Shown: positions 11,131 to 29,414 of the stretch, piece after piece
Layout of the letters: every line of letters starts with the position of its first letter
Numbering within the stretch: the first letter of the stretch is position 1
From: Gammaproteobacteria bacterium
GTDB lineage: Bacteria; Pseudomonadota; Gammaproteobacteria; Steroidobacterales; Steroidobacteraceae
DNA length: 35,248 bases
Reading direction: 5' to 3'
NCBI GenBank assembly: GCA_003132425.1
Contig: PKXS01000130.1
Coordinates: forward strand, 5,479-40,726
The notes under the pieces: generated by a model
What the model was told of the DNA's origin: nothing
Database searches by the model: none
Seen by the model: only the letters and a program-made list of their open reading frames with translations
Made by a program: the position numbers and the translations under genes

Positions 11131-12495
11131 TCAGCGGCAGCGAGCGCCCTGCCGGACCAGCTCCTTCTGCACCGCGCCAATATTCAGTTGATCGAATGCT
11201 TCGTCACGCTGCAGCGAGATGGCCGCCGCGACTCCGGCGCCTTGGCCGCTCACGGCGCAGCACATCATGTTGCGCGCAGAGGCATGGGAAACCTTGTCAC
11301 CGCCGATGCACCGTCCGGCGACGATCAGGTTGCCGACGCCTTTGGGCACCAGGGCGCGATAGGGTACCTGCCAGTAGCGCCCCGTGGTCGGCAGGATCAA
11401 GATGCCATAACCGTCGATGAACTCCGGAAAGATGCCGATCGCATCGTCGAACCGGCCCTGCTCGCGAACATCGGTACCGGTGAGATTGTAGAGCGCGTCG
11501 ATCTTGCGGGTATCGCGGATGCCGAGCGTCATGCCGAAGTTGCGCAGCTTCGCCTCCTCGCAGCCCGGCATGAAGCCGCGCAGCGCTTCGAGCGCGTAGA
11601 TCGCCTCGCGCCTGCCGCGCATCTCGCCGATGGTCAGATCAGTCGGGTCGGTGCCGTCGATTTCCGGCATATGCACCAGGTTCAGATACGTGAGGTCTCC
11701 CTGGTCGGTGACCGTGCCCCAAGTGCCGGCGACGGTGTGCAGATTCGCCGGGATGATGCCGGCGGCCAGCGCCTGTTTGAACGGCTTGCGCAGGAACGGC
11801 GAGAACAGCTTGTCTTCCTTACCCGTGGTTTCGTAGTCCCATTCACCGTTGCCCGACCAGTCAGCATAGGTCTGCGGATCGGCCTTCACTGCATCGATGA
11901 AACGGCGCTTGTTGACGCCGCTCATGGAGAACATGACGGACGCGGCCAGCATCTGCTCCTTGGGTGTCTTGCGCACTGGGGCGCCGGCGCGGGTCGCGAT
12001 GTCCGCATCCCCGGTCGCATCGATCACGCGCTTGGCAAGCATGGCCTCGCGGCCCGCCTTGCTCTCGGTGATGACGCCGCGAATGGCGCCGTTCTCCATG
12101 ATCGGCGCCACGCACAAGCGGTGCAGCAGCGGCGTGACCCCGGCTTCCTGCACCAGCACGTCGGCCACCCACTTGAACATCTCGGCGTCGAGCGCATGGC
12201 TTAGGGATTGTGGCTCCGGCATCGCCGCGCCCATGGCTTTTGCGCGCTCCTCGAACTCGATGCCGATGCCTTCGCAGTCAACGGTTTGCTCGTGCCGGTA
12301 CCAGGCAAAGCCCTCAACCCCCACTTGCGTGATGTTGCCGCCGAAGCAGCCGTTGCGGTCGATCAGCGCGGTGCGGGCACCGGCACGCGCCGCGGCCAGC
12401 GCCGCCGCAAGACCGCCCGGGCCGCTGCCCACCACCAGGACGTCGGTTTCCAGAACCACATCCAGCGAGCGGACGGGTTCAATAATCGTTGTCAT
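11131..12495 (-). CDS. FAD-dependent oxidoreductase (PF12831 type)
   Basis: The product has 454 residues. The N-terminal Rossmann motif 'VLVVGSGPGGLAAALAAARAG' region lies at residues 18-40 and is followed by 'RNGCFGGNITQVGVEGFAW', which is characteristic of the FAD_oxidored (PF12831) group. 'VIDATGDADIATRAGAP' and the C-terminal 'LIVAGRCIGGDKVSHASAR' FAD-contact block are also present. Members of this group are cytoplasmic and mostly uncharacterised; hydride transfer to FAD is a safe inference, the substrate is not. It converges on the amino-acid permease (15-nt gap) and diverges from the TonB receptor, so all three could serve one imported nutrient. Confidence 0.88.
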   Translation of the reverse strand: MTTIIEPVRSLDVVLETDVLVVGSGPGGLAAALAAARAGARTALIDRNGCFGGNITQVGVEGFAWYRHEQTVDCEGIGIEFEERAKAMGAAMPEPQSLSHALDAEMFKWVADVLVQEAGVTPLLHRLCVAPIMENGAIRGVITESKAGREAMLAKRVIDATGDADIATRAGAPVRKTPKEQMLAASVMFSMSGVNKRRFIDAVKADPQTYADWSGNGEWDYETTGKEDKLFSPFLRKPFKQALAAGIIPANLHTVAGTWGTVTDQGDLTYLNLVHMPEIDGTDPTDLTIGEMRGRREAIYALEALRGFMPGCEEAKLRNFGMTLGIRDTRKIDALYNLTGTDVREQGRFDDAIGIFPEFIDGYGILILPTTGRYWQVPYRALVPKGVGNLIVAGRCIGGDKVSHASARNMMCCAVSGQGAGVAAAISLQRDEAFDQLNIGAVQKELVRQGARCR

Positions 12496-12886: not shown

Positions 12887-15559
12887 ATGAATTCAAATTC
12901 GAAATTATCCTATGCAATTGCCGCCATCTTGAGCGGCTCCGGTATGGGTATGGGAATCTCGCACGCGGCAACGGCAACCGACACGACTGCGAGCGATTCC
13001 GAAGGGATCCAAGAAATCGTCGTGACCGCCCAGCGTCGCAATGAGTCGGTCCAGAACGTGCCGATCACGATTCAGGCGGTCACCGGTGAGCAGCTGAAAC
13101 AGCTGAATGTGACGACCCTCGACGACCTGCTGAGATACACGCCGAACGTGACGTTCAGCGGAAACGGCCCGGGCGAGGGCAATATCTTCATGCGCGGCTT
13201 GAGTTCCGGCGGCTCCGGCAACCAATCGCAGTCGACGACTGCGCCGTTCCCGAACGTTGCCCTGTACTTGGACGATCAGTCGATGCAGTTCCCGGCCCGC
13301 AACAATGACGTCTACATGGTCGACATGGAGCGTGTCGAAGTGCTCGAGGGCCCGCAAGGCACGCTGTTCGGCGGTGGAGCGCAGGCCGGCGCCATTCGCT
13401 ACATCACCAACAAGCCGAAGCTCGATGTCACGGAAGGCGACTTCAACGTGGGCTACGGCACGACTGCCGGCGGCGACCCGAACAACAACCTCAACGGGAC
13501 CATCAACCTGCCGCTGATCGCGGACACCCTGGCCATCCGCGCGGTGATCTTCAGCGACCATCGTGGCGGCTACATCTCCAATGTGCCGGCGACGATCTCT
13601 TCGGCTGCCAACCCAGCTACCGGTGTCAATGCCACCCCGACTGCCGGCAACGGGTCTCTCGTGGGATCGAACCTAAATCCGGTGACCTACACCGGAATGC
13701 GCCTGTCGGCACTGTGGAAGTTCAACGACGACTGGAACCTGCTGGTTCAGCAGAACTATCAGAACATGGAAGCGGACGGCTATTTCAACTCCTATCCTCA
13801 GGGTACGGACGGAAATAATCTGCAGCCTTACCAGATCACCGCCTTCACCCCGGCCTACGACAAGGACCGCTACGAAAGCACGTCCTGGACGCTCAATGGC
13901 AATATCGGCAATTTCCTGAAGGCTGTCTACACCGGTAGCTACCTGGACCGGCACATCAATCAGCAGGCCGACTATTCCAATTACATGCGCAGCACCGTGG
14001 GTTCGAACTACACCTGCACCGGCGTGGGTGCCCGATATGCCTACTTCAAGTCAGCCAAGCCGACCACCTGCTACGCACCGGTCGGCGACTGGAACGACAC
14101 CGTCGAGAATACTCACCAGAGCCACGAGATCCGCCTGAGCACCCCCGAGGAGAACCGGCTGCGCGGCCTCATCGGCGGCTTCTGGGAAGATTTCATCATC
14201 AAAGATCAGATGAACTTCAACTACCTGGGCATTCCGCAATGTAGTGCGGCCAACCTCGCGATTTCGGCGGCCGGCGGTCCGGACTGCCTCTCTGCCGTGG
14301 GACCCGTTCCCGGCAACTATGCGACCGATCCCGGCCTGCGCGAAAACTCCAACACGGCGTTCGGCGAGGACGTGAAGCGTGGCTACCGGCAGGCTGCATT
14401 TTTCACCTCCGTCGATTTTGACCTGATCCCGAAGGTACTGACGGTGACCGGCGGGACGCGCTACTACCACTACGACGAATTCGAGCAGGGTTCGGAGTTC
14501 TACAGCGAGACCAGCAGCCCCCTCATCCTCAATCACCCCAATGGAGCCTGCATTGCGGCGGGAGCTTGCGGCTTCGGCATCAACTTGAACAAGAAGGAAA
14601 GCGGCTTCAGGAGCCGCGGCAACCTGACCTGGCACATCACGCCGGACATCATGGCGTACTACACCTACTCGCAAGGCTTCCGTCCGGGCGGCTTCAATCG
14701 CACGAGCTCTCTTGCCAATGGTATGGTCTTCCCCGGCGCGGAGGCCCCGTACACCGCAGGGGTTGGCGCGAGCAAGCAGTTGCTCAAGCCGGTTGGTTAC
14801 GATTCCGACAATCTGACCAACAACGAGATCGGCATCAAGAGTGAATTCCTCGACCATCGACTCCAGGTCAACGGCTCCGTGTACCAAATGGTTTGGAGCA
14901 ACGTTCAGTTGCCGTTGTTCGATCCGGTACATCTTGGCAACACCACCTTCGACATCAACGGGCCAACCTACGTGGTCAAAGGCGTCGAGCTGCAATTGGT
15001 CGCGCGCGTGACGGAAGGGCTCACCGTACAGGGATCGAGTTCGTGGAACAGTACCAACCAGACCAACGCGCCTTGCTTGACCAGCAACAGGGTGAGTGCG
15101 GGCAATCCGACTCCGATCGGCACGTGCATCACCCAGATCAATAGTTTGCCCTACACCAACCCGTACGGTGTGCTCGACACCTCGCCGGCGTTCTCGCCGC
15201 CCTTGCAGTTCAACCTGCGCGCGCGCTACGACTGGACCATGGGCGACTACAAAACGTTCGCGATGGTGGGTGCCAACCATATCGGCAGCCAGCGCGACGA
15301 GCCGGCCAGTTTCCCGGACGGCAACGGACCGTTCTGCAGTCCTATTCCGACTACCACCCTGTGTCTTTACACCATGCCGGGATACACGACCTATGATGCG
15401 GCGGTCGGTGTGGCCAAGGACAGCTGGACGGCGCAGATCACGGGCAGCAACCTGACGAACTCGGATGCGAGTACGAATTCGACCTCCGGTCAGTTCATCA
15501 GGTCCGAAATACCGCTGCGGCCGCGCGTGCTCACGCTGCAGATTGGGTATAAGTTCTGA
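12887..15559 (+). CDS. TonB-dependent outer-membrane receptor
   Basis: The product has 890 residues. A signal peptide (about residues 1-28, ending SHAATA) precedes the TonB box and plug start 'IQEIVVTAQRRNESVQNVP'. The plug contains 'LLRYTPNVTFSG', 'FMRGLSSGG' and 'VEVLEGPQGTLFGGGAQAG'. The rest is a beta-barrel with Asn/Gly/Tyr-rich loops, including 'YYTYSQGFRPGGFNR'. It ends 'LTLQIGYKF' with the terminal Phe required for BAM recognition. It imports a nutrient using TonB energy, and the short plug and long loops resemble the broad SusC-independent receptors of sphingomonads and Steroidobacter. The ligand cannot be read from sequence. It is followed by a strong terminator, so it forms its own transcription unit. 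Confidence 0.95.
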   Translation: MNSNSKLSYAIAAILSGSGMGMGISHAATATDTTASDSEGIQEIVVTAQRRNESVQNVPITIQAVTGEQLKQLNVTTLDDLLRYTPNVTFSGNGPGEGNIFMRGLSSGGSGNQSQSTTAPFPNVALYLDDQSMQFPARNNDVYMVDMERVEVLEGPQGTLFGGGAQAGAIRYITNKPKLDVTEGDFNVGYGTTAGGDPNNNLNGTINLPLIADTLAIRAVIFSDHRGGYISNVPATISSAANPATGVNATPTAGNGSLVGSNLNPVTYTGMRLSALWKFNDDWNLLVQQNYQNMEADGYFNSYPQGTDGNNLQPYQITAFTPAYDKDRYESTSWTLNGNIGNFLKAVYTGSYLDRHINQQADYSNYMRSTVGSNYTCTGVGARYAYFKSAKPTTCYAPVGDWNDTVENTHQSHEIRLSTPEENRLRGLIGGFWEDFIIKDQMNFNYLGIPQCSAANLAISAAGGPDCLSAVGPVPGNYATDPGLRENSNTAFGEDVKRGYRQAAFFTSVDFDLIPKVLTVTGGTRYYHYDEFEQGSEFYSETSSPLILNHPNGACIAAGACGFGINLNKKESGFRSRGNLTWHITPDIMAYYTYSQGFRPGGFNRTSSLANGMVFPGAEAPYTAGVGASKQLLKPVGYDSDNLTNNEIGIKSEFLDHRLQVNGSVYQMVWSNVQLPLFDPVHLGNTTFDINGPTYVVKGVELQLVARVTEGLTVQGSSSWNSTNQTNAPCLTSNRVSAGNPTPIGTCITQINSLPYTNPYGVLDTSPAFSPPLQFNLRARYDWTMGDYKTFAMVGANHIGSQRDEPASFPDGNGPFCSPIPTTTLCLYTMPGYTTYDAAVGVAKDSWTAQITGSNLTNSDASTNSTSGQFIRSEIPLRPRVLTLQIGYKF

Positions 15560-15614
15560 TCGGCTAGTGGTGGATCCAAAGGCGACCGGCTCCGGCCGGT
15601 TGCCGTAGAATCAA

Positions 15615-15641
15615 GGGCGGACATTTGTCCGCCCTTTTTTT
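15615..15641 (+). terminator. Strong intrinsic terminator after the TonB receptor gene
   Basis: GGGCGGACA (15615-15623) pairs with TGTCCGCCC (15626-15634) and is followed by seven T residues (15635-15641). It sits 56 nt after the receptor stop and only 13 nt before the next start codon. TAGAAT at 15606-15611 could be a -10 for the next operon, which would place the hairpin in that mRNA's leader. Confidence 0.9.
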
Positions 15642-15654
15642 CCCCTGGGCGATT

Positions 15655-17670
15655 ATGGATTCTTCGGACGCGAAAACGGCCACATCAGCGCTTGCAACCG
15701 ACGTAGCCCGGATTCGCGCGCTGCTCAGGCAGCAGAAGTTTTCTGAGACTCTCGCCGCGGGTGAAGCACTGCTCGCCGAAGCGGCCGATCAGCGGGAGGT
15801 GCTGCTGTTTGTCGCCATTGCCCAGCGATATCTGGGCCGGATCCCCGACGCACTGAACACGCTAAAGACCCTGGAGCGGCATCATCCGCGCTTCAGCCGC
15901 CTGTATGAGGAGCGTGGGCGCTGCTACGTCGACATGAAGCAGGCGCCGCAGGCCATCGAGGCTTTTCTTAGCGCGGTGAACCTCAATCATTCTCTGCCGG
16001 GCAGCTGGCGCATGCTCGATGGCCTGTACCGCATGACGGGTCAAACCGGTGAGGCCGCGACGGCGGCAAATCACGTGGCGACGCTCGAGAATCTACCGCC
16101 CGAGGTCGTGACCGCGACCGGGCTGTTTATGGACGGCGATCTGGACGCTGCCGAGCCTCTGGTGCGTGCCTATCTGCTGAAGTACGGCAATCATGTCGAA
16201 GCCATGCGCCTACTCGCCGGCATTGGCATTGCGCGCAAGGTGTACGCCGACGCAGAGCTGCTGCTGGCGGCGGTCCTCGAGCTCGCGCCCGGTTATCGTG
16301 CTGCCCGCCAGGAATACGCGGGGGTGCTGGTCGAACTCCATAAGTACAGCGAAGGGCGCCGGCAGCTCGACCAGCTTCTTGAAAAAGACCCCGACAACCG
16401 CGAGCTGAAGACACTCTATGCCTTCAGCTCCGTAGGGCTCGGCGAACACGAACGGGCCATCGGACTGTACCGGGCGCTTCTTCAGGGGACGCCCGAGGAT
16501 GCCGACCTGCATCTGTCCATCGCCCATGCACAGAAGACTCTCGGCCGGCGGCAGGAGGCGATTGAATCCTATCGCAGAGCGGCGGCCTGCCGCCCCGGCT
16601 ATGGCGATGCGTATTGGAGTCTCGCGAACTTAAAAACCTACCGGTTCACGAATGAAGAGCTGGCGCAGCTACGCGCCGCGGAATCGGCGCCGGCAACCGG
16701 TGCCGTCGACCGCTACCACCTGTGTTTTGCGCTCGGCAAGGCACTGGAGGATCAAGGTGAATTCGCGGAGTCCTTCCGCTACTACGAGCGGGGCAATGCG
16801 TTTAAGCGCTCTGAAAGCTGGTATGGCGCCGACATCATCGAGAACAACACCCATCGGCAGATTGAGGTCTGCACAGCTGAGTTTTTCGCCAACCGCCGTG
16901 GCTGGGGCGCGCAGGATCCGGACCCTATTTTCATCATCGGCCTGCCGCGCTCGGGCTCGACTCTGCTCGAACAGATCTTAGCTTCGCACTCGAAGGTCGA
17001 GGGCACGCAGGAACTCGCCGACATTGAGCAGATTGTCAGAAATCTTCGCGGCCATGACCTGGACCCGGAAAATCCGCGCTACCCGCGAATATTGGCACAG
17101 ATGGAGTCCCGGGACTTTCTCAACCTCGGCGAGCAATATCTGGCCGGCACCCGGGTGTACCGCACCGGCAAGCCCTTTCTCATCGACAAGATGCCGAACA
17201 ACTTCCGGCACGTAGGGCTCATTCACCTGATGCTGCCGAATGCACGGATCATCGATGCGCGGCGTGAGCCGATGGCGTGCTGTTTCAGCAATCTGAAGCA
17301 GCTGTTTGCCGGCGGCCAAGAATTCACCTACAGCATCGACGATATCGCGCGTTACTACCGAACGTATCTGGAGTTGATGCGGCATTGGGATCGCGTACTG
17401 CCCGGACGCATACTTCGCATACAGCACGAGGATGTCGTCGATGATCTCGAGGGCAACGTGCGGCGCATGCTTGATTTCTGCGGACTTCCGTTCGAACCCC
17501 CGTGCATTGATTTTTACAAGACGGAGCGTAGCGTGCGCACCGCCAGTTCGGAGCAGGTTCGCCAGCCCCTCAATCGTGAGGGTCTGGATCAGTGGAAGCA
17601 CTTCGAGCCGTGGCTTGAGCCGCTGAAGAACGCGCTCGGCGACGCGCTTAACCACTACCGCGATGCATAA
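15655..17670 (+). CDS. TPR-sulfotransferase A
   Basis: The start at ATG 15655 is preferred to an in-frame ATG at 15625, which lies inside the terminator; it also aligns with the start of the paralogue at 19920. The product has 671 residues. The first ~340 form TPR helices (for example 'GRIPDALNTLKTLERHHP', 'GRRQEAIESYRRAAACRP'). A Sulfotransfer_3 (PF13469-type) domain follows from about residue 424, with the PAPS 5'-phosphosulfate loop 'LPRSGSTLLEQILASH' and the 3'-phosphate block 'IIDARREPMACCFSNLKQLF'. It would transfer sulfuryl from PAPS to an unknown acceptor, with the TPRs probably recognising a peptide or protein. No clear Shine-Dalgarno is visible. Its end overlaps the next gene by 8 nt. 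Confidence 0.92.
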   Translation: MDSSDAKTATSALATDVARIRALLRQQKFSETLAAGEALLAEAADQREVLLFVAIAQRYLGRIPDALNTLKTLERHHPRFSRLYEERGRCYVDMKQAPQAIEAFLSAVNLNHSLPGSWRMLDGLYRMTGQTGEAATAANHVATLENLPPEVVTATGLFMDGDLDAAEPLVRAYLLKYGNHVEAMRLLAGIGIARKVYADAELLLAAVLELAPGYRAARQEYAGVLVELHKYSEGRRQLDQLLEKDPDNRELKTLYAFSSVGLGEHERAIGLYRALLQGTPEDADLHLSIAHAQKTLGRRQEAIESYRRAAACRPGYGDAYWSLANLKTYRFTNEELAQLRAAESAPATGAVDRYHLCFALGKALEDQGEFAESFRYYERGNAFKRSESWYGADIIENNTHRQIEVCTAEFFANRRGWGAQDPDPIFIIGLPRSGSTLLEQILASHSKVEGTQELADIEQIVRNLRGHDLDPENPRYPRILAQMESRDFLNLGEQYLAGTRVYRTGKPFLIDKMPNNFRHVGLIHLMLPNARIIDARREPMACCFSNLKQLFAGGQEFTYSIDDIARYYRTYLELMRHWDRVLPGRILRIQHEDVVDDLEGNVRRMLDFCGLPFEPPCIDFYKTERSVRTASSEQVRQPLNREGLDQWKHFEPWLEPLKNALGDALNHYRDA

Positions 17671-19930
17671 GTTGGGTGTGAAACCGGGCCGCAACGATCC
17701 GTGCCCCTGCGGCAGCGGCAAAAAATACAAGCACTGCTGCGCTCTGCAACCCGCCGCGATGCCGCCGCCGCAAATACTCAGCCCGCGCGAGATCGGCGCC
17801 CTGGTCGAGCTGGTCGATCATGACCGGCTGAGCGAGGCGCAATTCAAGGCCAGTGCGCTCCTCGCGATACACCCGAACGCCGGGATACTGTGGAAGATCC
17901 TTGGTGTGGCGCTCATGCGGCAAGGCAGGGACGCATTACAGGCGCTGCGCAGAACGGCAGAGCTGATGCCGCATGACGCCGAAGCGCACGGCAATCTAGG
18001 ATCGGCCCTGCACGATCAGGGTCAGTGGGCCGAAGGCCTGGCGAGCTTGCGCAGGGCGCTTGCAATCCAGCCCGACGACGTGGCGGCCCTCGTCGATGCC
18101 GCCAATGCAATGAAGGAGCTCGGGCGAGCACGTGAAGCGGTTCCGCTCTACCAAAAGGCGCTGCAGCTCAAGCCCGGGCTCATCGAGGCTCAAAACAATC
18201 TGGGCAACGCGTTTCTGGCGCTCGGTCAGTGTGATGAGGCCGTGGCCTGCTACAGGCGTGCGCTCGAGATCCAACCGGATGATGCAGAAGTACACTGCAA
18301 TCTGGGAAACGCTCTTCGGCAACTAGGAGCGCTTGATGAGGCCATGGCGAGCAGCCGGCGGGCCATAACCCTCGACCCGGCTTTAAGCGTCGCGCACAAT
18401 AACCTGGGGCTCATCTTAGCGGCGCTGGGACAGCGCGAGGCAGCGGTAGCGAGCTTCCGGCAGGCGTTGGAACTGAACCCCGGCTACGTCGAGGCGCTCA
18501 ATAATCTCGGCAACGTGCTGCGCGACCTTGGGGATCGCCGCGAGGCTGCATCCCTCTATACCCGAGCCATCGAACTCGATCCCAAGCGCGCCGAGAGCCA
18601 CTGTAACTTAGGACAAGTGCTGTTCGAATTCCGGCGAATCGATGAAGCGGCGGCGAGTTACACCCAGGCGCTTGGCCTGCAGCCGGACTATGCCTTGGCG
18701 CATTTGAGCCTTGGCACGGCACGGCGCCTGCAGGGTCGCGCGGCCGAAGCGCAGGCAAGCTGCCAGGCCGCGCTCGCCATCGAGCCGAACTACGTCGAGG
18801 CACTGACCCTCCTCGGTGAACTGCGCGCCGATCGAGGTCAATTTTCCGAAGCGGAAGAATTATTCCAGCGAGCGATCGCCATCGATCCGGAATTTCCCTT
18901 TGCGTTTTGCAGCATCGCGGCGCATCGCAAAATGACGGGCGAGGATACTGCGTGGCTTCAGGGCACCGAGGCGTTGCTTGCAAAGCCGCTGCCGCTCGGA
19001 CACGAAATCAGCCTGCGCTACGCTCACGGCAAATACTTTGACGACCTCAGGCAATACGATCAGGCGTTCAGCAGTTACCGGCAGGCAAACGAACTGACCA
19101 AACGCTATGGATCAAACTTCGATGGAGCGAAGCTGACGCAGCGCGTCGATGAGATCATCCAAAGTTTCGATGCGCCGTTCATGCGCCGGTGTCAGGCCCG
19201 CGCCTCCCCCTCGGAGCTTCCGGTTTTCATCATCGGCATGCCGAGATCGGGCACCTCGCTGACCGAGCAAATTCTCGCCTCACACCCGGCCGTGTTTGGT
19301 GCCGGGGAGGTCACTTTCTGGGATGGCGCTTTCGTCGCTTATAAAAAGGCGGGGCTTAAAAGCGAGGCCGGCGCGAACCTGCTGCCCGGCATGGCGAGCG
19401 ACTATCTCGATCGCCTGACGGCCTTATCCGGCCAGGCGCTGCGCGTGGTCGACAAGCTGCCGGCCAATTTCTTGTACGCAGGACTGATCCACGCCGCGTT
19501 CCCGCAGGCCCGAATCATCCACATGCGCCGTCATCCGATCGATACCTGCTTGTCAATCTACTTTCAGAATTTTTTCAATATGGGCCCGTACGCCAACGAT
19601 TTTGACAATCTTGCGCACTACTACGGCGAATACGTCCGCATCACCGATCACTGGCGCGCCGTGCTTCCCGCGGCGACGCTCTTGGAGATGCCTTATGAGG
19701 CGCTGATCGAAGATCAGGAGTTCTGGACCCGGCGAGTGCTGGATTTCATCGGCCTGCCGTGGGACCCAAAGTGTCTGAATTTTCATCAGACGGATCGCCT
19801 CGTCATCACTGCCAGCAAATGGCAGGTCCGGCAAAAGATCAATGCCGCATCGGCAGGACGCTGGAGAAATTATGAGAAATTCGTCGGGCCTCTGCGGCCG
19901 CTGATGGAGTTGTATCCAAATGCACGATAG
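17663..19930 (+). CDS. SEC-C / TPR-sulfotransferase B
   Basis: The product has 755 residues and the start overlaps gene A by 8 nt. Residues 9-26 are a SEC-C zinc motif ('GRNDPCPCGSGKKYKHCC', pattern CxCx8CC). About ten canonical TPRs follow (residues ~35-410; 'PDDAEVHCNLGNALRQLG' and similar, on a 34-residue period). The C-terminal sulfotransferase domain has the PAPS loop 'IGMPRSGTSLTEQILASH' at about residue 523 and the 3'-phosphate block 'IIHMRRHPIDTCLSIYFQNF'. It is more divergent from A and C than they are from each other. SEC-C motifs bind zinc and mediate protein contacts, as in SecA, which suggests docking to a protein partner. The acceptor is unknown. Confidence 0.92.
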   Translation: MHKLGVKPGRNDPCPCGSGKKYKHCCALQPAAMPPPQILSPREIGALVELVDHDRLSEAQFKASALLAIHPNAGILWKILGVALMRQGRDALQALRRTAELMPHDAEAHGNLGSALHDQGQWAEGLASLRRALAIQPDDVAALVDAANAMKELGRAREAVPLYQKALQLKPGLIEAQNNLGNAFLALGQCDEAVACYRRALEIQPDDAEVHCNLGNALRQLGALDEAMASSRRAITLDPALSVAHNNLGLILAALGQREAAVASFRQALELNPGYVEALNNLGNVLRDLGDRREAASLYTRAIELDPKRAESHCNLGQVLFEFRRIDEAAASYTQALGLQPDYALAHLSLGTARRLQGRAAEAQASCQAALAIEPNYVEALTLLGELRADRGQFSEAEELFQRAIAIDPEFPFAFCSIAAHRKMTGEDTAWLQGTEALLAKPLPLGHEISLRYAHGKYFDDLRQYDQAFSSYRQANELTKRYGSNFDGAKLTQRVDEIIQSFDAPFMRRCQARASPSELPVFIIGMPRSGTSLTEQILASHPAVFGAGEVTFWDGAFVAYKKAGLKSEAGANLLPGMASDYLDRLTALSGQALRVVDKLPANFLYAGLIHAAFPQARIIHMRRHPIDTCLSIYFQNFFNMGPYANDFDNLAHYYGEYVRITDHWRAVLPAATLLEMPYEALIEDQEFWTRRVLDFIGLPWDPKCLNFHQTDRLVITASKWQVRQKINAASAGRWRNYEKFVGPLRPLMELYPNAR

Positions 19931-21932
19931 GAGCGCCGCTGCCCATTCTTCGCCGGTTGAAGCGGAGGTTCGACGGATACGCGAACTACTGGAGCAGCGC
20001 CGTTTCACCGATGCCCAAGCCGCCGCGTCGGCGCTGTTGGTGCGGGTGCCCGAAAACCGCGATGTCCTCTTGATGTCGGCAGTGAGCGATCGGTACCTGA
20101 ATAACATCCCCGGCGCGCTCGCGACGCTCGAGCGTCTTGAGCGGCATCACCCCGGATTCAGCCGCCTGTATCAGGAGCGCGGTCATTGCTACGTGGCCAC
20201 GCGTGATGCGCCGCGGGCGATCGACGCCTTTCTTCGGGGGGTGAACATCAATCCGGCGCTGCCTGCGAGCTGGAGCATGCTCGAGGGTCTGTACCGACTG
20301 ACGGGCGATACCGAGAACGCCGCCATGGCCGCCGCGCACGTCGCGACGCTCAAGCGCCTGCCGCCGGAAGTGGTGCACGCCACGGGTCTATTTTCGGACG
20401 GCGAGCTGACCCCTGCGGAGAACATCGTCCGCGCCTATCTCCTGAAGCACGGCAATCATGTCGAGGCCATGCGCCTGCTGGCCAAAATAGGCATCGAGCG
20501 TGAGGTATTCGATGATGCGGAACTGCTGCTCGAGGCCGTCATGCAGCTCGCGCCTGACTATCAGGCAGCGCGCCTCGACTATGTCCGGACGCTGCTGGAG
20601 CGGCACAAGCACCTTCGCGCGCGCGAGGAGCTCGAGACGCTGCTGAAGCTCGAGCCCCGCAACAGGCAATACCTCACGCTTTACGCAACCGCGAGCGTCG
20701 GCCTCGGCGATCACGAGAAGGCGATTGCGCTGTACCGGGAACTCCTCGCGGATGCACCGGGGGCCGCCGATCTGCACCTGTCGGTCGCTCACTCGCTGAA
20801 GACGCTTGGGCACCGCGAAGAATCCATCGCGGCGTACCGTGCGGCCGCCACCGCACGCCCGAGCTTTGGCGACGCGTACTGGAGTCTTGCGAATCTGAAG
20901 ACCTATCGCTTCTCTGACGCCGAGATCGCGCGCATGCGCGCCGAAGAAGCGGCGCCGTCCACTGCGCTGATCGATCGCTACCACCTGTGCTTCGCTCTCG
21001 GCAAGGCCTTGGAGGATCGGGGCGAGTATGCAGAGTCATGGCGCCATTACGAGCGAGGCAACGCGCACAAACGCTCCGAAAGCCGCTACCGGCCCGAAAT
21101 TATCGAGACCAACACGCGCCTGCAGATCGGCATCTGCACGCACGACTTCTTTTCGCATCGCACGGGTGTCGGCGCCAAGAGTTCCGATCCGATATTCATC
21201 GTCGGGCTGCCCCGCTCCGGATCGACGCTGCTCGAGCAAATACTGGCCTCCCATTCGCGCGTCGAAGGCACGCAGGAATTGGCCGATATCCCGCGGCTCG
21301 TCCTCGACCTGCAAGGGCGCGAACCCGATCTGAACAACCCACGCTACCCGGGTGTGCTCGCCGACCTTAAACCCGAGGACTGTCTACGGCTCGGCGAAAA
21401 ATACTTGAGCGATACGCGGGGCTACCGCACGAACAAGCCGTACTTCATCGATAAGATGCCGAATAACTTCAGGCATATCGGCCTCATTCACCTGATTCTG
21501 CCGAATGCCAGGATCATCGACGCCCGGCGCGAACCGATGGCCTGCTGCTTCAGTAATTTGAAGCAACTATTCGCCAGCGGACAGGAGTTTACCTACAGCA
21601 CTGCGGACATCGCGCGCTATTACCGAACGTATCTCGAGCTGATGCGGCACTGGAATGCGGTGCTCCCGGGAAGAATACTGCGAGTGGAGCATGAAGATGT
21701 CGTCGATGATCTCGAAGGCAACGTGCGGCGAATTCTCGATTTCTGCGGCCTCGAGTTCGAGCCGGCCTGCGTCGAGTTTCACAAGACGGAGCGCAGTGTT
21801 CGCACGGCAAGCTCAGAGCAGGTGCGCCAGCCGATCTTCCGCGAGGGGCTCAACCAGTGGAGGAATTACCAACCGTGGCTCGGATCGCTCGAAGATGCAT
21901 TGGGTGATGCGCTGCTCCGTTATCGCGATTAG
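19920..21932 (+). CDS. TPR-sulfotransferase C (close paralogue of A)
   Basis: The product has 670 residues, beginning at ATG 19920, which overlaps gene B by 11 nt. The domain order is the same as in A: N-terminal helices and TPRs, then sulfotransferase with 'LPRSGSTLLEQILASHSRV' and 'ARREPMACCFSNLKQLF'. Identity to A is high along the whole length and nearly complete in blocks such as 'DKMPNNFRH.GLIHL.LPNA' and 'TERSVRTASSEQVRQP'. A and C therefore arose by duplication around B. The phosphonate-type FAD oxidase gene follows after only 16 nt on the same strand, which suggests read-through. Confidence 0.92.
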   Translation: MHDRSAAAHSSPVEAEVRRIRELLEQRRFTDAQAAASALLVRVPENRDVLLMSAVSDRYLNNIPGALATLERLERHHPGFSRLYQERGHCYVATRDAPRAIDAFLRGVNINPALPASWSMLEGLYRLTGDTENAAMAAAHVATLKRLPPEVVHATGLFSDGELTPAENIVRAYLLKHGNHVEAMRLLAKIGIEREVFDDAELLLEAVMQLAPDYQAARLDYVRTLLERHKHLRAREELETLLKLEPRNRQYLTLYATASVGLGDHEKAIALYRELLADAPGAADLHLSVAHSLKTLGHREESIAAYRAAATARPSFGDAYWSLANLKTYRFSDAEIARMRAEEAAPSTALIDRYHLCFALGKALEDRGEYAESWRHYERGNAHKRSESRYRPEIIETNTRLQIGICTHDFFSHRTGVGAKSSDPIFIVGLPRSGSTLLEQILASHSRVEGTQELADIPRLVLDLQGREPDLNNPRYPGVLADLKPEDCLRLGEKYLSDTRGYRTNKPYFIDKMPNNFRHIGLIHLILPNARIIDARREPMACCFSNLKQLFASGQEFTYSTADIARYYRTYLELMRHWNAVLPGRILRVEHEDVVDDLEGNVRRILDFCGLEFEPACVEFHKTERSVRTASSEQVRQPIFREGLNQWRNYQPWLGSLEDALGDALLRYRD

Positions 21933-21948
21933 AGCGCCTGATTGATCC

Positions 21949-23082
21949 ATGATCGCCCCTTCAAAGGAGTTTGACCTCGCAGTCGTGGGCGCCGGCATCG
22001 TCGGGTTGTCCTGCGCGCTGGCCGCCGCCAGGCGCGGCCTCAAGGTGATCGTCATCGAGCGCAACTCGCGCGCCCGCGGAGCCTCGGTGCGCAACTTCGG
22101 CTTGGTTACCGTCACCGGGCAGGATCGCGACACCGTGTGGCACCGGGCCCGCCGCTCACGCGAGGTGTGGCGGGAGGTCGCGGCGAAGGCCGGCATCCCG
22201 ATCGTGCAGCAGGGTCTGTGGGTCGCCGCTCAACGACCGGAATCCGCAGCCCTGCTCGATGCGTTCATGCGTTCCGACATGGCCGAAGGCTGCCGGCTGC
22301 TGGGGCCGTCGGCCGCCCGGCGGCAGTGTCCGGAGTTGCGCACGCCCGGGCTTAAGGCGGCGTTTTGCAGCCCGCATGAGCTACGCGTCGAGTCCCGCGA
22401 AGCGATCCCGATGCTCACCGACTGGCTTGCGCGCGACCACGGCGTCGAATTTCGCTGGGAGACGGCGGTGCATGCGGTTGAACCGCCGAGGCTCGACACC
22501 TCGCGCGGCCCACTGTCCGCCGCGGCGGTGGTGGTGTGTCCCGGCGACGATCTGGTCACGCTGTTTCCCGAGCGGCTGGCGGCTGCGCGCGTCGGCCGCT
22601 GCACACTGCAAATGCTGCGCCTGGAAAGCCCGGGCTTTGCGTTGCCGGGAACGGTGATGTCGGACCTAAGTCTGCTGCGCTATGGAGGGTTCGCAAGCCT
22701 GCCCGAGGCCGGCGTGCTGCGGCGGCGGTTGGAATCGGAGCAGAGCGAGTATTTGCGGCACGGCATTCACCTCATCATCGCGCAAGGGCCCGACGGCAGC
22801 CTGATTGTCGGCGACAGCCATCACTATGACCCTGCCGCGGAGCCGGTCGCCGACGAAGGTGTTTATCGGTTGATCTTCGACGAATACCGGGCCGTGACCG
22901 GCCGGCCCCCGCCGGCCGTCCGGGCGCGTTGGACCGGAACCTATGCGACCGCCAGCGATGGTGCCGTGCTGATCGACGCGCCATCGCTTCGGGCCCGCTT
23001 GGTTGTGGTCACGAGCGGCGTCGGCGCCTCGACCGGATTTGCCATCGGTGAAGAAGTGATCGGCGGCCTGTTTAACGGCTAG
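21949..23082 (+). CDS. FAD-dependent amine oxidase, TIGR03364-like (phosphonate-associated)
   Basis: The product has 377 residues of the DAO (D-amino-acid oxidase) superfamily. The Rossmann motif 'VVGAGIVGLSCALAAARRG' begins at residue 12, followed by 'VIVIERNSRARGASVRNFG'. The short 'RGASVRNFGLVTVTGQ' region resembles the TIGR03364 group, which is recurrently encoded with phosphonate genes. These enzymes oxidatively deaminate 2-aminoethylphosphonate or N-methylated/hydroxylated relatives to phosphonoacetaldehyde-type products, releasing H2O2. Here it precedes the phn operon, consistent with feeding PhnY and PhnA. It may belong to the sulfotransferase transcript because a promoter lies only after it. 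The exact substrate is uncertain. Confidence 0.8.
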   Translation: MIAPSKEFDLAVVGAGIVGLSCALAAARRGLKVIVIERNSRARGASVRNFGLVTVTGQDRDTVWHRARRSREVWREVAAKAGIPIVQQGLWVAAQRPESAALLDAFMRSDMAEGCRLLGPSAARRQCPELRTPGLKAAFCSPHELRVESREAIPMLTDWLARDHGVEFRWETAVHAVEPPRLDTSRGPLSAAAVVVCPGDDLVTLFPERLAAARVGRCTLQMLRLESPGFALPGTVMSDLSLLRYGGFASLPEAGVLRRRLESEQSEYLRHGIHLIIAQGPDGSLIVGDSHHYDPAAEPVADEGVYRLIFDEYRAVTGRPPPAVRARWTGTYATASDGAVLIDAPSLRARLVVVTSGVGASTGFAIGEEVIGGLFNG

Positions 23083-23100: not shown

Positions 23101-23131
23101 TATTGTCAACAATATGCAGTTAAGATACGAT
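23101..23131 (+). promoter_or_regulatory. Promoter of the phn operon with overlapping GntR-type operator
   Basis: TTGTCA (23103-23108) and TACGAT (23126-23131) are separated by 17 nt, a good sigma-70 promoter. An inverted repeat TATTGT-CA-ACAATA (23101-23114) covers the -35. TTGTnnACAA is the kind of half-site arrangement bound by FCD-class GntR regulators, so the adjacent regulator probably represses its own operon here. The start codon lies at 23163. Confidence 0.6.
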
Positions 23132-23162: not shown

Positions 23163-25090
<1,928 letters not shown>

Positions 25091-25099
25091 GAGAATTCG

Positions 25100-26554
25100 A
25101 TGTCCGCCAGCGCCCAACCGTCAGCACCGCGCGCACCTGTTCGCGAGTCGCTGCGCATTGCAGGCAAGAAAGTGTCCCGCGACCGGGTCATCGAGGTTCG
25201 TCATCCCTACAGCGGCGAACTGGTCGGCACCGTTCCCAAGGCCACCCTCGCCGATGTCAAACACGCGCTGAAAATTGCGCGCGACTTTCGCTCCCCGCTC
25301 ACGCGCCACGACCGCTACACGATTCTCATGAAAGCCGGCGCCATCATCGCCGCCAGGCACGATGATCTCGCGCACTTGATCACGCTGGAATCGGGGCTCT
25401 GCCTGAAGGACTCGCAGTACGAGGTCGGGCGCGCATCCGATGTGCTGCTATTCGCCGCCAACCAGGCGTTGGTCGACGACAGCCAAGTGTTCTCGTGTGA
25501 TCTCACCGCGCATGGGAGGAGCCGCAAGGTCTACACCCTGAAGGAGCCGCTGCTCGGCGCAATCACCGCGATCACTCCGTTCAACCATCCATTGAACCAA
25601 GTGATCCACAAAGTGGCTCCCGTGGTGGCGACCAACAACCGCGTGGTGCTCAAGCCCAGCGAGAAGACGCCGCTGAGCGCATTGGCGCTCGCCGATATCT
25701 TTTACGAGGCGGGGCTGCCGCCTGAAATGCTCTCGGTGCTGACGGGCGATCCGGCCGAAATCGCTGATGAGCTGCTGATGAGCGCGGATGTTGACCTCGT
25801 CACCTTCACCGGCGGGGTGTCAATCGGCAAGCACATTGCCGCCAAGGCAGTCTACAAGCGCCAGGTGCTGGAGCTGGGCGGGAACGACCCGATCATCGTG
25901 CTCGAGGATGCGGATATCGAGGAAGCCGCGACTTTGGCCGCGAGTGGGTCCTACAAGAACTCGGGTCAACGATGCACGGCCATCAAGCGCATGCTGGTAC
26001 AGGAAAGCGTGGCCGACCGCTTTATCGAACTGCTCGTCGAGAAGACGCGTGCCGTCAAGTACGGCGATCCGTTCGATCCTACGATGGATATGGGCACGGT
26101 GATCGACGAGTCATCGGCGCGGCGATTCGAGACGGTCGTGAACGAAGCGGTGGCGGCAGGCGCGAGGCTCTTGATCGGCAATGTCCGCCGCGGCGCGCTG
26201 TATTCCCCGACGGTGCTCGACCGGGTCGCACCGAACATGACGGTCGTGCGCCAGGAAACCTTCGGCCCTGTCTCGCCGGTGATCCGCTTCAAGACGGTGG
26301 AGGAGGCAATCAGCATCGCGAACGGAACCGCCTACGGACTGTCATCCTCGCTCTGCACCAACCGCATCGACATGATTACCCGCTTCGTCAAGGAGCTGCA
26401 CGTCGGCAGCGTGAACGTGCGCGAGGTCCCGGGCTACCGCCTGGAGATGACCCCGTTCGGGGGCATCAAGGATTCTGGGCTGGGCTACAAAGAAGGCGTG
26501 CTGGAGGCCATGAAAAGCTTCTGCAACACGAAAACTTATTCGCTGCCCTGGTAA
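25100..26554 (+). CDS. phnY: Phosphonoacetaldehyde dehydrogenase (NAD-dependent)
   Basis: The product is a 484-residue aldehyde dehydrogenase. It has the NAD-binding region 'AITPFNHPLNQVIHKVAP', 'KPSEKTPLSALAL' and 'FTGGVSIGK', the general base Glu258 in 'LELGGNDP', and the catalytic Cys292 in 'NSGQRCTAIKRM'. The late 'ETFGPVSPVIRF' and 'TPFGGIKDSGLGYKEGV' blocks are complete. The operon position between phnA and phnW assigns it to the TIGR03250-like group that oxidises phosphonoacetaldehyde to phosphonoacetate. An ordinary semialdehyde dehydrogenase cannot be excluded from motifs alone, but the neighbours make this unlikely. It is cytoplasmic. Confidence 0.93.
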   Translation: MSASAQPSAPRAPVRESLRIAGKKVSRDRVIEVRHPYSGELVGTVPKATLADVKHALKIARDFRSPLTRHDRYTILMKAGAIIAARHDDLAHLITLESGLCLKDSQYEVGRASDVLLFAANQALVDDSQVFSCDLTAHGRSRKVYTLKEPLLGAITAITPFNHPLNQVIHKVAPVVATNNRVVLKPSEKTPLSALALADIFYEAGLPPEMLSVLTGDPAEIADELLMSADVDLVTFTGGVSIGKHIAAKAVYKRQVLELGGNDPIIVLEDADIEEAATLAASGSYKNSGQRCTAIKRMLVQESVADRFIELLVEKTRAVKYGDPFDPTMDMGTVIDESSARRFETVVNEAVAAGARLLIGNVRRGALYSPTVLDRVAPNMTVVRQETFGPVSPVIRFKTVEEAISIANGTAYGLSSSLCTNRIDMITRFVKELHVGSVNVREVPGYRLEMTPFGGIKDSGLGYKEGVLEAMKSFCNTKTYSLPW

Positions 26555-26572: not shown

Positions 26573-28279
26573 ATGGGCAGTACGGTCATTCTTGATTTGA
26601 TGGGCGGAGTCGCGCTGCTCCTGTGGGGACTGCACATGGTCCACAGCGGCATCGTGCGCGCATTCGGCGCCGATCTGCGGCGCCTCCTTGGTATTGCCCT
26701 GCAAAGTAGGCTGCGCGCATTTCTCGCGGGCGCCTTCGTCACCGCTCTTCTGCAGAGCAGCACCGCAACCGGATTGATGGTTGCCTCCTTTGTAACCGCC
26801 GGCACCTTGGATCTTGCTCCGGCTCTCGCCGTCATGCTCGGCGCCAACGTGGGCACGACGCTGGTCGTGCAGATCCTGTCGTTCAACATTGCGGTCGTGA
26901 CGCCCATCCTGCTGCTGACCGGCGTCATCGCGTTCAAGCGCGGCGGGAGAACCCGAACCCGCGATCTGGGCCGTGTCGTGATCGGGATCGGCTTGATGCT
27001 GCTGGCGCTGCACATTTTCCTCGGCGCTCTGGTGGCGACGGAGACCGCGGCTGTCTCACGCGCGCTGCTGGGCGCGATCACCACTCATCCGATTCTGTGC
27101 GTGGCTATCGCGGCCGCCATCACCTGGGCTGCGCACTCCAGCGTCGCCGTCGTGCTCGTCGTGATGTCGCTAGGAGCCGCCCACCTCGTTCCCCCGACGG
27201 CAGTGCTCGCCCTGGTGCTCGGCGCGAACATCGGCAGCGCCCTTAACCCTCTGATCGAGACCAGTCAGCCGGGGAATCCGGCCAGCCGGCGGCTTCCGAT
27301 CGGCAATCTCCTGACGCGCATTGTCGGTTGCGTGCTGGTGCTGCCGTTCCTGCATCCCATCGCGGACATCCTGCAGCGCTACGAGCCGAACCCCGCGCGC
27401 CTGGCGGCTGACTTTCACACCGCCTTCAATATCCTGCTCGCGCTCCTATTCATTGGCCCCCTCGACCTCGTGGCCACGCAGCTCAAACGCTGGCTGCCGG
27501 ACCAGCCGAAGTCCGCGGATCCGGGCACCCCCGTCTATCTCGACTCCACCGCCGCCGGCGCTCCCGCCGTCGCGCTGGTCTGCGCCGCCCGCGAGGTCCT
27601 GCGGATGGGGGATTTGATCGAAACCATGTTGCGGCAGGCGATGACGGCGCTGCTCACGAACGATCGCAAGCTGGTCGCCGACATCAGCCGCATGGACGAC
27701 TCCGTCGACAGCCTCAATGAGGCGGTGAAGCTGTTCGTGACGCGAATGACCCGCGACAGCCTGGATGACCGTGACGGCTATCGCGCCATGGAGATCATTT
27801 CGTTCTCGATCAATCTTGAGCACGTCGGCGATATCATCGACAAGAACCTGATGGACCTTGCGTCCAAGAAGATCAGGCGCGGCATCACGTTCTCGAAGGA
27901 AGGCGAAGCCGATCTCGTTGAGTTTCACCAGCACGTCGTCGATAGCCTGAAGCTCGCGGTCGGAATATTCATGTCCGGCGATATGAACGTCGCCCGTCAG
28001 CTGATTGCGGCAAAGACGCAGCTACGCGAAAAGGAATTCGCGGCCGCCGAGCGCTATCTGGGACGCTTGCGCGAGGGGACGCCGGAAACAATCGAGTCGT
28101 ACTCGCTGGATCTGGACATCTTGCGCGATCTGAAGCGCGTGCACTCGCACCTTTGCTCGGCCGCCTACCCCGTTCTCGAGCGCGCCGGAGCGCTGCAGCG
28201 CAGCCGCCTCAAGGACCCCGGGTTTGGCCGGCGCAAGACTCCGGTAAACCGCCTTCCTACCAAACCACAATTACCGTGA
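26573..28279 (+). CDS. Na+/phosphate cotransporter family protein with PhoU-like C-terminus
   Basis: The product has 568 residues. Residues 1-300 contain two inverted hydrophobic repeats with the family's Gln/His-Ser-Ser motifs ('[15 protein letters not shown]', '[15 protein letters not shown]') and '[12 protein letters not shown]' / '[12 protein letters not shown]'. The C-terminal ~230 residues are a helical PhoU-like domain ('[21 protein letters not shown]'). This is the NptA/YjbB architecture; E. coli YjbB exports phosphate. Placement inside the phn operon (18-nt gap before, 31-nt gap after) points to handling of phosphate released by PhnA. Direction of transport is inference. Confidence 0.9.
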
Positions 28280-28310
28280 ATCTCGATGCGGTTGCAATGA
28301 GGACCCCGTG

Positions 28311-29414
28311 ATGGACGCGATACTGCTGACGCCTGGCCCTCTTACCACCTCCGCCGACACCAGGTCTGCGATGCTCTCGGATTGGGGATCGTGGGACGGC
28401 GCCTTCAACACGCTGACCGCCTCGGTATGCCGGGATTTGCTGGCTATCCTCGATGCGCAAGCCGACCACGTCTGCGTTCCGCTGCAAGGCAGCGGGACGT
28501 TCTCCGTCGAAGCGGCGCTCGGCACGCTCGTTCCGAAGAATGGCAAAGTGCTGGTGCCGGACAACGGCAGCTATTGCAAGCGGATCGTGCGGATCTTGGG
28601 CTATCTGGGCCGCGAGGCCGTCGTGTTGCCGCATGGCGAACAGGAGCCGGCTGACCCTGCGCGGATCGACGCCGCGTTGACGGCCGATGCGGCGATCACG
28701 CACGTGGCGCAGGTGCACTGCGAGACCGGCACCGGGATCTTGAATCCGCTGCCGCAGATCGCGGCGACCGTGGCAAGACATGGCCGCGGCCTGATCATCG
28801 ATGCCATGAGCTCCTACGGCGCCCTTCCCATCGATGCGCGGACACTGCGCTTCGACGCTCTTGTTGCGGCGTCCGGGAAATGTCTCGAGGGCGTGCCCGG
28901 CATGGGCTTCGTGATCGCCCGCAGGGCGACGCTGGAGCGCTCAAGCGGCAACAGTAGTTCGCTGGCCATGGACCTGGTCGACCAGTGGCAGTACATGCAG
29001 AAGACTGGTCAGTGGCGGTTCACGCCGCCCACGCACGTCTTAGCCGCGCTGCGCGCCGCCATCGATCAGTACCAGCGCCAAGGTGGCCGGGAAGCTCGGC
29101 TGCAGCGTTATACCGAGAATTGCGCCGCGCTGGTCTCGGGCATGCGTGCACTGGGCTTCAAGACTTTCTTGCCGGACGCCCTGCAGGCACCGATCATCGT
29201 CACGTTCCATTCCCCGCCCGATCCGGCCTACGACTTCAGCCAGTTCTACGCCCGAGTGCGCGACCGCGGATTCATCCTATACCCCGGCAAGCTGACGGCC
29301 GTGGATACGTTCCGCGTCGGCTGCATCGGCGCGATCGGCCCGGATACTTTGAGGCAGGCGGTGGCCGCGATCGCCGAGGTGCTGCGCGAGATGGGAGTGC
29401 GCCGGCTGGCATAG
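28311..29414 (+). CDS. phnW: 2-aminoethylphosphonate:pyruvate transaminase
   Basis: ATG 28311 is preferred to GTG 28308 because GAGGA at 28299-28303 is then 7 nt away. The product has 367 residues, class V fold-type I PLP enzyme. It opens with '[17 protein letters not shown]' and '[13 protein letters not shown]', characteristic of PhnW. PLP contacts include '[12 protein letters not shown]' and the Schiff-base Lys190 in '[14 protein letters not shown]'; '[15 protein letters not shown]' near the end also fits. It converts 2-AEP plus pyruvate to phosphonoacetaldehyde plus alanine, the substrate for PhnY. It is the last gene of the operon and meets a convergent gene 8 nt later. Confidence 0.95.

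Follow-up and report, generated by a model that had tools for sequence, protein, structure and literature searches.

A TonB-dependent receptor paired with TPR-sulfotransferases at an aminophosphonate locus of a Steroidobacteraceae bacterium, and a possible site of tyrosine sulfation

Introduction

Tyrosylprotein sulfotransferases (TPSTs) are Golgi enzymes without a tetratricopeptide repeat (TPR) array, and O-GlcNAc transferase and SPINDLY are enzymes that modify proteins. The locus described here holds a TonB-dependent receptor gene, three genes for sulfotransferases with TPR arrays (ST1, ST2 and ST3) and genes for phosphonate degradation. It lies in a stretch of 35,248 nt (the window) on contig PKXS01000130.1 of Gammaproteobacteria bacterium (Steroidobacteraceae; GCA_003132425.1), an assembly of 4.08 Mb in 146 contigs. 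Like O-GlcNAc transferase and SPINDLY, the window enzymes have a long TPR array ahead of the transferase, but the catalytic domain and chemistry are different. With the eukaryotic TPST1 and TPST2 they share the catalytic-domain fold (Z 20.4) and equivalents of the active-site Arg, Glu and Lys; however, the identity is 18-20%, and the activity here is putative. Our proposal, for and against which we find ourselves evenly divided, is that a cytoplasmic TPR tyrosine sulfotransferase acts on its own receptor ahead of export, in this case within an aminophosphonate locus.

A bacterial precedent for protein sulfation ahead of export is RaxST of Xanthomonas, a PAPS (3'-phosphoadenosine 5'-phosphosulfate)-dependent sulfotransferase modelled on TPST2, which is reported to sulfate a tyrosine of the RaxX precursor before its export (PMC6637879). 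RaxX is described as a secreted peptide, 60 residues long, that goes with a type I secretion system, whereas here the TPR array is on the enzyme and the neighbour is a TonB receptor. In methanobactin operons, sulfotransferase (MbnS) and TonB transporter (MbnT) genes are likewise tied to one kind of operon; there, according to the account in PMC3621798, the sulfotransferase acts on the ligand peptide. MbnS is a PF00685-type enzyme, and no such peptide was recognised here among the neighbour clusters named. On the phosphonate side, the closest system is PbfD with phnWYA or phnWX, since the window oxidase scores above the TIGR03364 cut-off and lies beside PhnW, PhnY and PhnA; the main text of the PbfD paper (PMC10590968), however, mentions neither TonB nor sulfotransferase. 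As judged by titles and abstract openings, no description of a TPR-sulfotransferase/TonB receptor pair, and no TonB receptor for phosphonates with phnW, was found among the papers that our searches listed. To our knowledge, outer-membrane uptake of phosphonates is uncharacterised, and a candidate receptor clade is named below. If the enzyme does sulfate the receptor, protein tyrosine sulfation would be routine on bacterial outer-membrane receptors, beyond the peptide of a plant pathogen.

Organisation of the locus

Open reading frame (ORF) and profile searches gave the gene order TonB receptor, ST1, ST2, ST3, TIGR03364 FAD oxidase and phnR-phnA-phnY-Na/Pi symporter-phnW. The overlaps of 8 nt (ST1/ST2) and 11 nt (ST2/ST3), the 16 nt between ST3 and the oxidase, and the receptor upstream are exactly where the initial annotation of this DNA had put them. 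A TPR array and a Sulfotransfer_3 domain (PF13469) are present in all three enzymes according to Pfam. ST1 and ST3 are 67% identical and, to judge by their sequences, are a duplication that flanks ST2. The features of the receptor-sulfotransferase part, with AlphaFold2 (AF2) model scores as predicted local distance difference test (pLDDT), are as follows.

12887..15559, + strand: TonB-dependent receptor, 890 aa (plug PF07715, 71 bits; barrel PF00593, 87 bits; AF2 model pLDDT 84)
13970-13984, + strand: D362-Y363-S-N-Y366, candidate sulfation site Y363/Y366 (invariant loop tyrosines)
13973..14083, + strand: predicted extracellular receptor loop, residues 363-399 (between strands 344-362 and 400-418 of the AF2 model)
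15613..15641, + strand: predicted intrinsic terminator in the receptor/ST1 interval (10 pairs plus T tract)
15655..17670, + strand: ST1, TPR-sulfotransferase, 671 aa, start ATG 15655 (PF13469, 175 bits; AF2 pLDDT 90.9)
17663..19930, + strand: ST2, SEC-C + TPR + sulfotransferase, 755 aa (PF02810, 41 bits; PF13469, 151 bits)
17690..17743, + strand: SEC-C (SecA-type metal-binding) motif of ST2, residues 10-27 (PF02810)
19920..21932, + strand: ST3, TPR-sulfotransferase (PF13469, 179 bits)
21949..23082, + strand: TIGR03364 FAD oxidase, putative PbfD type (N-methyl-aminoethylphosphonate / aminoethylphosphonate oxidase; 416.1 bits vs cut-off 285.1)

Pairing of receptor and sulfotransferase

Related sulfotransferase loci were taken as the best 80 of 582 from named genomes, a set that is biased towards close relatives of the query and in which one genome can contribute several loci. 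Of the 74 loci that could be evaluated, 64 have a TonB receptor gene immediately upstream in the same orientation. The other 16 of the 80 comprise six without room, two with the receptor downstream, one with a divergent receptor, one with another sulfotransferase upstream and six with none. Record titles are mostly those of alpha- and gammaproteobacteria (Steroidobacteraceae, Dyella, Rhodanobacter, Novosphingobium, Maricaulis, Colwellia and others), and a few metagenome titles differ (Eremiobacteraeota, L059; Betaproteobacteria, L102; Chloroflexi, L114). The window's own genome has 13 Sulfotransfer_3 and 42 TonB barrel matches; window-type receptors with a sulfotransferase directly downstream occur also on its contigs C105, C140 and C119, the order is reversed on C93, and kin receptors on C9 and C87 have no sulfotransferase within the stretches examined. 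Another kin receptor of the same family in this genome (G000:C99:329-2080) has two in-frame stops.

Across 100 genomes of the family to which the window belongs, the best matches to ST1 and to the receptor were also compared; 89 of these genomes match ST1 at E <1e-3 and 63 at <1e-100. With thresholds of 1e-100 and 1e-50, which were set after the tables had been seen and with which two other settings agree, 54 genomes have both, nine the enzyme only, two the receptor only and 35 neither. Within the nine genera that have both enzyme states, 47 genome pairs are concordant and none is discordant, and this joint presence and absence argues for dependence beyond shared ancestry at the genus level. 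We regard the receptor and the sulfotransferase as very probably a genuine pair.

Neighbouring proteins were clustered over 106 loci (ORFs of at least 100 aa; 25 of the 45 largest clusters named). The sulfotransferase cluster occurs in 89 loci, the receptor cluster in 75 and the next commonest neighbour in 15, and the constant partner of the sulfotransferase is the receptor. The catabolic sets beside the pair differ by group, as seen from the clustering and from family scans of representatives: one group has a GMC oxidoreductase, an MR/MLE dehydratase, an HIBDH-like dehydrogenase, an aldehyde dehydrogenase and an MFS transporter, a second has BCCT betaine-type transporters, and a third has phosphonate genes. 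A common substrate theme over the pairs (amines, betaine) was considered and dropped, since the GMC, MR/MLE, HIBDH-like and MFS genes of the first group are sugar-acid-like.

The initial annotation had proposed a linked system of uptake, modification and catabolism, in which sulfation acts on a surface protein, a receptor component or an imported amino compound. The linkage of the three kinds of gene is not confined to the window's own genome, but the pair is a general module that adjoins other catabolic sets too. Since the neighbouring catabolic genes vary while the receptor is constant, sulfation of an imported compound is unlikely, and among the targets then listed the receptor is favoured.

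Fold, active-site residues and location of the sulfotransferase

The AF2 model of ST1 has a mean pLDDT of 90.9. When residues 418-670 were compared by VIA-align, the first seven rows were all TPSTs (8w5z, 5wrj, 5wri, 3ap2, 3ap3, 9wwe and 3ap1), with Z 20.4-19.8 over 238-242 residues (first row, 241 residues at 2.7 Å) and 18-20% identity; the best sulfotransferases of other kinds shown have Z 16.7 and 16.5. The 50 rows shown by Foldseek for whole ST1 are TPR-type or other repeat proteins by title, and the sulfotransferases surfaced via VIA-align.

R432, E453 and K512 are kept in 45 of 45 enzymes, and HMMER aligned them to Arg, Glu and Lys of TPST 8w5z. By analogy with TPSTs, we take them to be the arginine of the 5' PAPS loop, the catalytic glutamate and the active-site lysine, respectively. 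R537, the counterpart of the 3'-phosphate-binding arginine, is present in all 45 and S631 in 44. S545, the 3'-phosphate-binding serine, fits the TPST-type assignment less well: it is kept in 37 of the 45, ST1 included, and is Gly in the other eight.

Such an enzyme might instead act on a ligand, secreted or at the surface, to be bound or taken up by the receptor afterwards; this could be a small molecule, a peptide or a glycan. The like has been proposed for MbnS and methanobactin, the latter being imported through MbnT. Methanobactin operons offer the model: two of them hold the ligand-acting MbnS, and a TonB transporter is common among operons of this kind (PMC3621798). Moreover, the best solved match to ST1 by sequence is not a TPST but CurM (3.6e-8), a natural-product (polyketide) sulfotransferase, followed by a tick TPST (2.2e-6). 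Nevertheless, the fold comparison ranks TPSTs first, and the 25 named clusters include none recognisable as a precursor, a biosynthesis or an exporter gene. What was recognised beside the enzyme is catabolic and differs between clades, whereas the enzyme is constant. Overall, a ligand as the target appears unlikely.

No signal-like stretch was seen by eye at the N-terminus of ST1; therefore, the enzyme is probably cytoplasmic. An APS kinase, for the supply of PAPS, is present in the same genome. The SEC-C motif at the N-terminus of ST2, which is absent from the initial annotation, was found in three of the four ST2 relatives scanned (those of L075, L147 and L105, and not that of L136). The C-terminal metal-binding domain of SecA is reported to bind SecB, and other proteins that carry domains of this kind are suspected of being accessories of the Sec system (PMC8076867).

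A receptor loop as candidate target

The fold matches of the receptor are TonB receptors. Among 47 aligned receptors, 63 residues are invariant, and those within loop 363-399 are only Tyr363, Tyr366 and Tyr375; Cys377, Cys395 and Pro398 of the loop are near-invariant. In the model the loop is on the side of the long loops, which suggests that it is extracellular. TPSTs favour an acid at position -1 to the target tyrosine, and Asp362 precedes Tyr363. In a joint tree, the 82 enzyme-adjacent receptors fall in one clade of 90; the motif [DE]-Y-x-x-Y is present throughout this clade (90 of 90) and in two of the 47 receptors outside it. Within two further genomes (G094 and G091) and the window's own, nine of nine receptors beside a full-length TPR-sulfotransferase carry the motif, vs 10 of 55 without one; eight of these 10 sit in the same clade. 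For this comparison, the plug sites taken were all 50 in G094 and 30 of 44 in G091, with none of 40 from G100; 65 of these 80 yielded a receptor frame, 10 of those 65 and two of 17 own-genome receptors were left out as weak matches, and four plus two were set aside for a short sulfotransferase beside them or an intervening gene.

Several observations tell against sulfation of the receptor. Eight clade receptors carry the motif but lack an enzyme next to them, and the enzyme of L154, one of the 82 scored as adjacent, is presumed, since the contig ends there. Nine family genomes have the enzyme and, at the threshold used, no receptor. Motif and pairing have essentially one origin on the receptor tree, where one of seven independent pairs differs. 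Therefore, their association is not independent proof, and an independent-contrast test of motif against pairing was uninformative. The density of acidic tyrosines, 0.34 per 100 aa in paired receptors vs 0.30 in 17 'unpaired' ones, is not clearly higher; the 17 included three that are otherwise enzyme-associated (C93, C100 and C80), which was corrected in the motif comparison. The motif is missing from four receptors whose neighbouring sulfotransferase is shorter (426-542 aa), invariant residues occur in other receptor loops too, and the invariant loop tyrosines could be structural. On balance, we place sulfation of the receptor tyrosines a little below an even prospect.

The enzyme might also sulfate another envelope or export protein that these receptors need, the loop tyrosines being structural or ligand-binding. 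The eight motif-bearing receptors without an adjacent enzyme would agree with this, as would the TPR arrays, whose resemblance to that of O-GlcNAc transferase suggests protein substrates. However, the enzyme tracks receptors and no fixed third gene (the commonest other neighbour is in 15 of the 106 loci), although a target encoded elsewhere would be compatible with that pattern. We consider this explanation improbable, to about the same degree as a ligand target.

The four receptors without the motif (L220, L221, L222 and L223, all in G091), two of which are convergent with the sulfotransferase, possibly represent a second type of pair. In a distant receptor family whose sulfotransferase gene precedes that of the receptor (L219 and L201, on G091:C3 and G094:C14), the motif is kept as E-Y-S-Q-Y, where the acid is Glu.

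The phosphonate branch

The genes that follow the oxidase are those of an aminoethylphosphonate degradation cluster, and PhnR, PhnA, PhnY, the Na/Pi symporter (NF037997) and PhnW all score above their respective curated cut-offs.

23101..23114, strand not assigned: inverted repeat TATTGTCAACAATA, a perfect palindrome, likely PhnR operator
23163..23849, + strand: PhnR-type GntR/FCD regulator (TIGR03338, 294 bits vs cut-off 271.5)
23855..25090, + strand: PhnA phosphonoacetate hydrolase, start approximate (TIGR02335, 600 bits)
25100..26554, + strand: PhnY phosphonoacetaldehyde dehydrogenase (TIGR03250, 849 bits)
26573..28279, + strand: Na/Pi symporter with PhoU domain (profile matches)
28308..29414, + strand: PhnW 2-aminoethylphosphonate:pyruvate transaminase (TIGR02326, 505 bits)

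The phosphonate link that had been drawn from the TIGR03364-like oxidase holds, with 416 bits vs a cut-off of 285 and the phn genes behind it. PbfD1 of Acinetobacter baumannii, which is annotated as TIGR03364, is reported to convert N-methyl-aminoethylphosphonate and oxygen to phosphonoacetaldehyde and methylamine (PMC10590968, iScience 2023). On this basis the window oxidase is very probably a PbfD that feeds PhnY and PhnA in parallel to PhnW. The earlier statement that no substrate can be named is thus superseded for the oxidase, for which N-methyl-2-aminoethylphosphonate can be proposed via PbfD1.

Phosphonate genes (TIGR03364, PhnA or PhnW) were found in 10 of the 80 loci (L056, L070, L075, L079, L104, L078, L094, L097, L106 and L110), with TIGR03364 above cut-off in five, PhnW in two and the other three recognised by similarity to window proteins. 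In two sphingomonads (L094, from Novosphingobium nitrogenifigens DSM 19370, and L097) the oxidase directly follows the sulfotransferase, at gaps of 17 and 8 nt, so that this part of the gene order is conserved. In both, a PhnX-like gene follows the oxidase, and L094 has also a DUF5690-like gene (by similarity); representatives of these two clusters scored above cut-off for TIGR01422 (L137) and matched PF18943 (L110), respectively. Among the 100 family genomes, TIGR03364 is above cut-off in 10 and PhnA in 11. The pair lies within ~10 kb of TIGR03364 in six of those 10 (the window, G086, G023, G097, G013 and G083), so the co-occurrence check that the initial annotation had suggested turned out in its favour; of the other four, G063 has no pair in view and G007, G050 and G061 are at contig edges.

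A receptor tree (FastTree, 75 rows) groups 16 of 16 phosphonate-labelled receptors together in a 32-member clade (local support 100%), and none of the 43 receptors outside is labelled. The label needs 7 changes on this tree vs a shuffled mean of 14.8, and none of 500 shuffles was as low. Loci L136-L155 had been added because they bear phosphonate genes, and seven of the 32 clade rows are the window or such loci; without these, the clade has 25 rows, nine of them labelled. Two loci with phosphonate genes have no receptor in the tree, L104, which leaves no room to judge receptor presence, and L110.

It might be argued that the pair is real and that the phosphonate genes here are a chance neighbour. 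Only 10 of the 80 related loci adjoin such genes, half of the clade's receptors (16 of 32) are without a phosphonate label, and in L110 the TIGR03364 gene is ~5 kb from a sulfotransferase without an adjacent receptor. However, all labelled receptors are within one clade, the sulfotransferase-oxidase order recurs in sphingomonads, and 8 of the 19 TIGR03364-or-PhnA family genomes are linked to the receptor or the pair within ~10 kb, for which a rough binomial model gives a chance of 1e-5 to 1e-7 (the eight include G005, with PhnA pieces below cut-off and linked by the receptor alone at a contig edge). A chance neighbourhood is therefore very unlikely, and we consider it reasonably probable that the ligand of the receptor is related to aminophosphonates.

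A membrane protein, of which the cluster's representative (L110) is DUF5690 (PF18943), is encoded beside TIGR03364 and PhnX in several loci (L094:16313-17632, L110:16561-17892, L138:8613-9908 and others) and is a candidate inner-membrane aminophosphonate transporter. A glutamine-synthetase-like gene is found near phosphonate-clade receptors (L067:4962-6329, L138:16828-18000 and L058:15863-17233); the L067 protein matches GlnA and gamma-glutamylputrescine synthetase models below cut-off, and such a protein could handle the methylamine released by PbfD. The cluster of the Na/Pi symporter with PhoU domain, which lies inside the phn cluster of the window, has members also in L070 and L067.

Transcription signals

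The strong 10-pair terminator at 15613-15641, which the initial annotation overlooked, ends 13 nt ahead of the ST1 start, so that a transcript continuous from receptor to ST1 would require read-through. Because the terminator leaves no room for a promoter behind it, ST1 is probably expressed in this way. An intrinsic terminator was predicted in the same interval in 40 of 65 pairs (the 64 loci and the window), vs a mean of 1.3 and a maximum of 5 in 100 shuffles.

Neither a promoter nor a terminator was called between ST3 and the oxidase (21932-21949). The only clear promoter had been placed after the oxidase; the sigma-70-like site nearest to the gap is indeed there (23103-23131), but the scan does not establish it as the only clear one, having given 2 promoter-like sites vs 2.5 expected by chance. 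Therefore, gene order was relied on instead. It is plausible that the oxidase is transcribed from the sulfotransferase side, as had been suggested, because phnR-phnA-phnY-phnW occurs without the oxidase in L149 and because of the order in L094 and L097. The repeat TATTGTCAACAATA lies over the likely phnR promoter, has no second copy in the window and is likely the PhnR operator.

Proposed mechanism

In the scheme proposed here, the locus would join a receptor-modification module with aminophosphonate catabolism. The TPR-sulfotransferases, with their TPST-type domain, would use PAPS to sulfate Y363/Y366 (acid-Tyr-x-x-Tyr) of the receptor precursor in the cytoplasm, ahead of its passage through the Sec machinery, and the sulfotyrosines would end up at the mouth of the extracellular loop. 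The SecA-type, putatively SecB-binding SEC-C of ST2 may bring this enzyme to unfolded outer-membrane precursors, and the leaky terminator may keep the enzyme scarce relative to the receptor. Since its clade is linked to phosphonate genes, the receptor is probably an importer of an aminophosphonate, either by itself or as part of a larger compound. The PbfD-type oxidase would convert N-methyl-aminoethylphosphonate, and perhaps aminoethylphosphonate, to phosphonoacetaldehyde, PhnW would form the same product from aminoethylphosphonate, and PhnY and PhnA would complete the conversion to acetate and phosphate.

A wider reading, which we offer tentatively, is that many alpha- and gammaproteobacterial TonB receptors are tyrosine-sulfated, most by their own cytoplasmic TPR-type enzyme acting before export on acid-Tyr-x-x-Tyr, with ST2 docking on SecB via SEC-C. 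The result would be a fixed anionic patch at the mouth of the receptor, and one branch of these receptors would be an outer-membrane gate for aminophosphonates.

Other features of the window

Two further genes flank the locus.

11131..12495, - strand: FAD-dependent oxidoreductase (PF12831, 300 bits), divergent from the receptor
30024-31199, + strand: TauD/gamma-butyrobetaine-hydroxylase-like dioxygenase, adjoining PhnW

The cluster of the PF12831 oxidoreductase is found in 10 of the 106 loci, including the window, L056, L057, L058, L070, L140, L142 and L147. In L056, L057, L058, L070, L140 and L142, and also in L147, the gene is accompanied by one for an MFS transporter and lies next to a phosphonate-clade receptor gene or diverges from it. 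The dioxygenase was considered as TmpA and rejected, with 267.7 vs a cut-off of 400; it is the trimethyllysine dioxygenase model that is above its cut-off instead.

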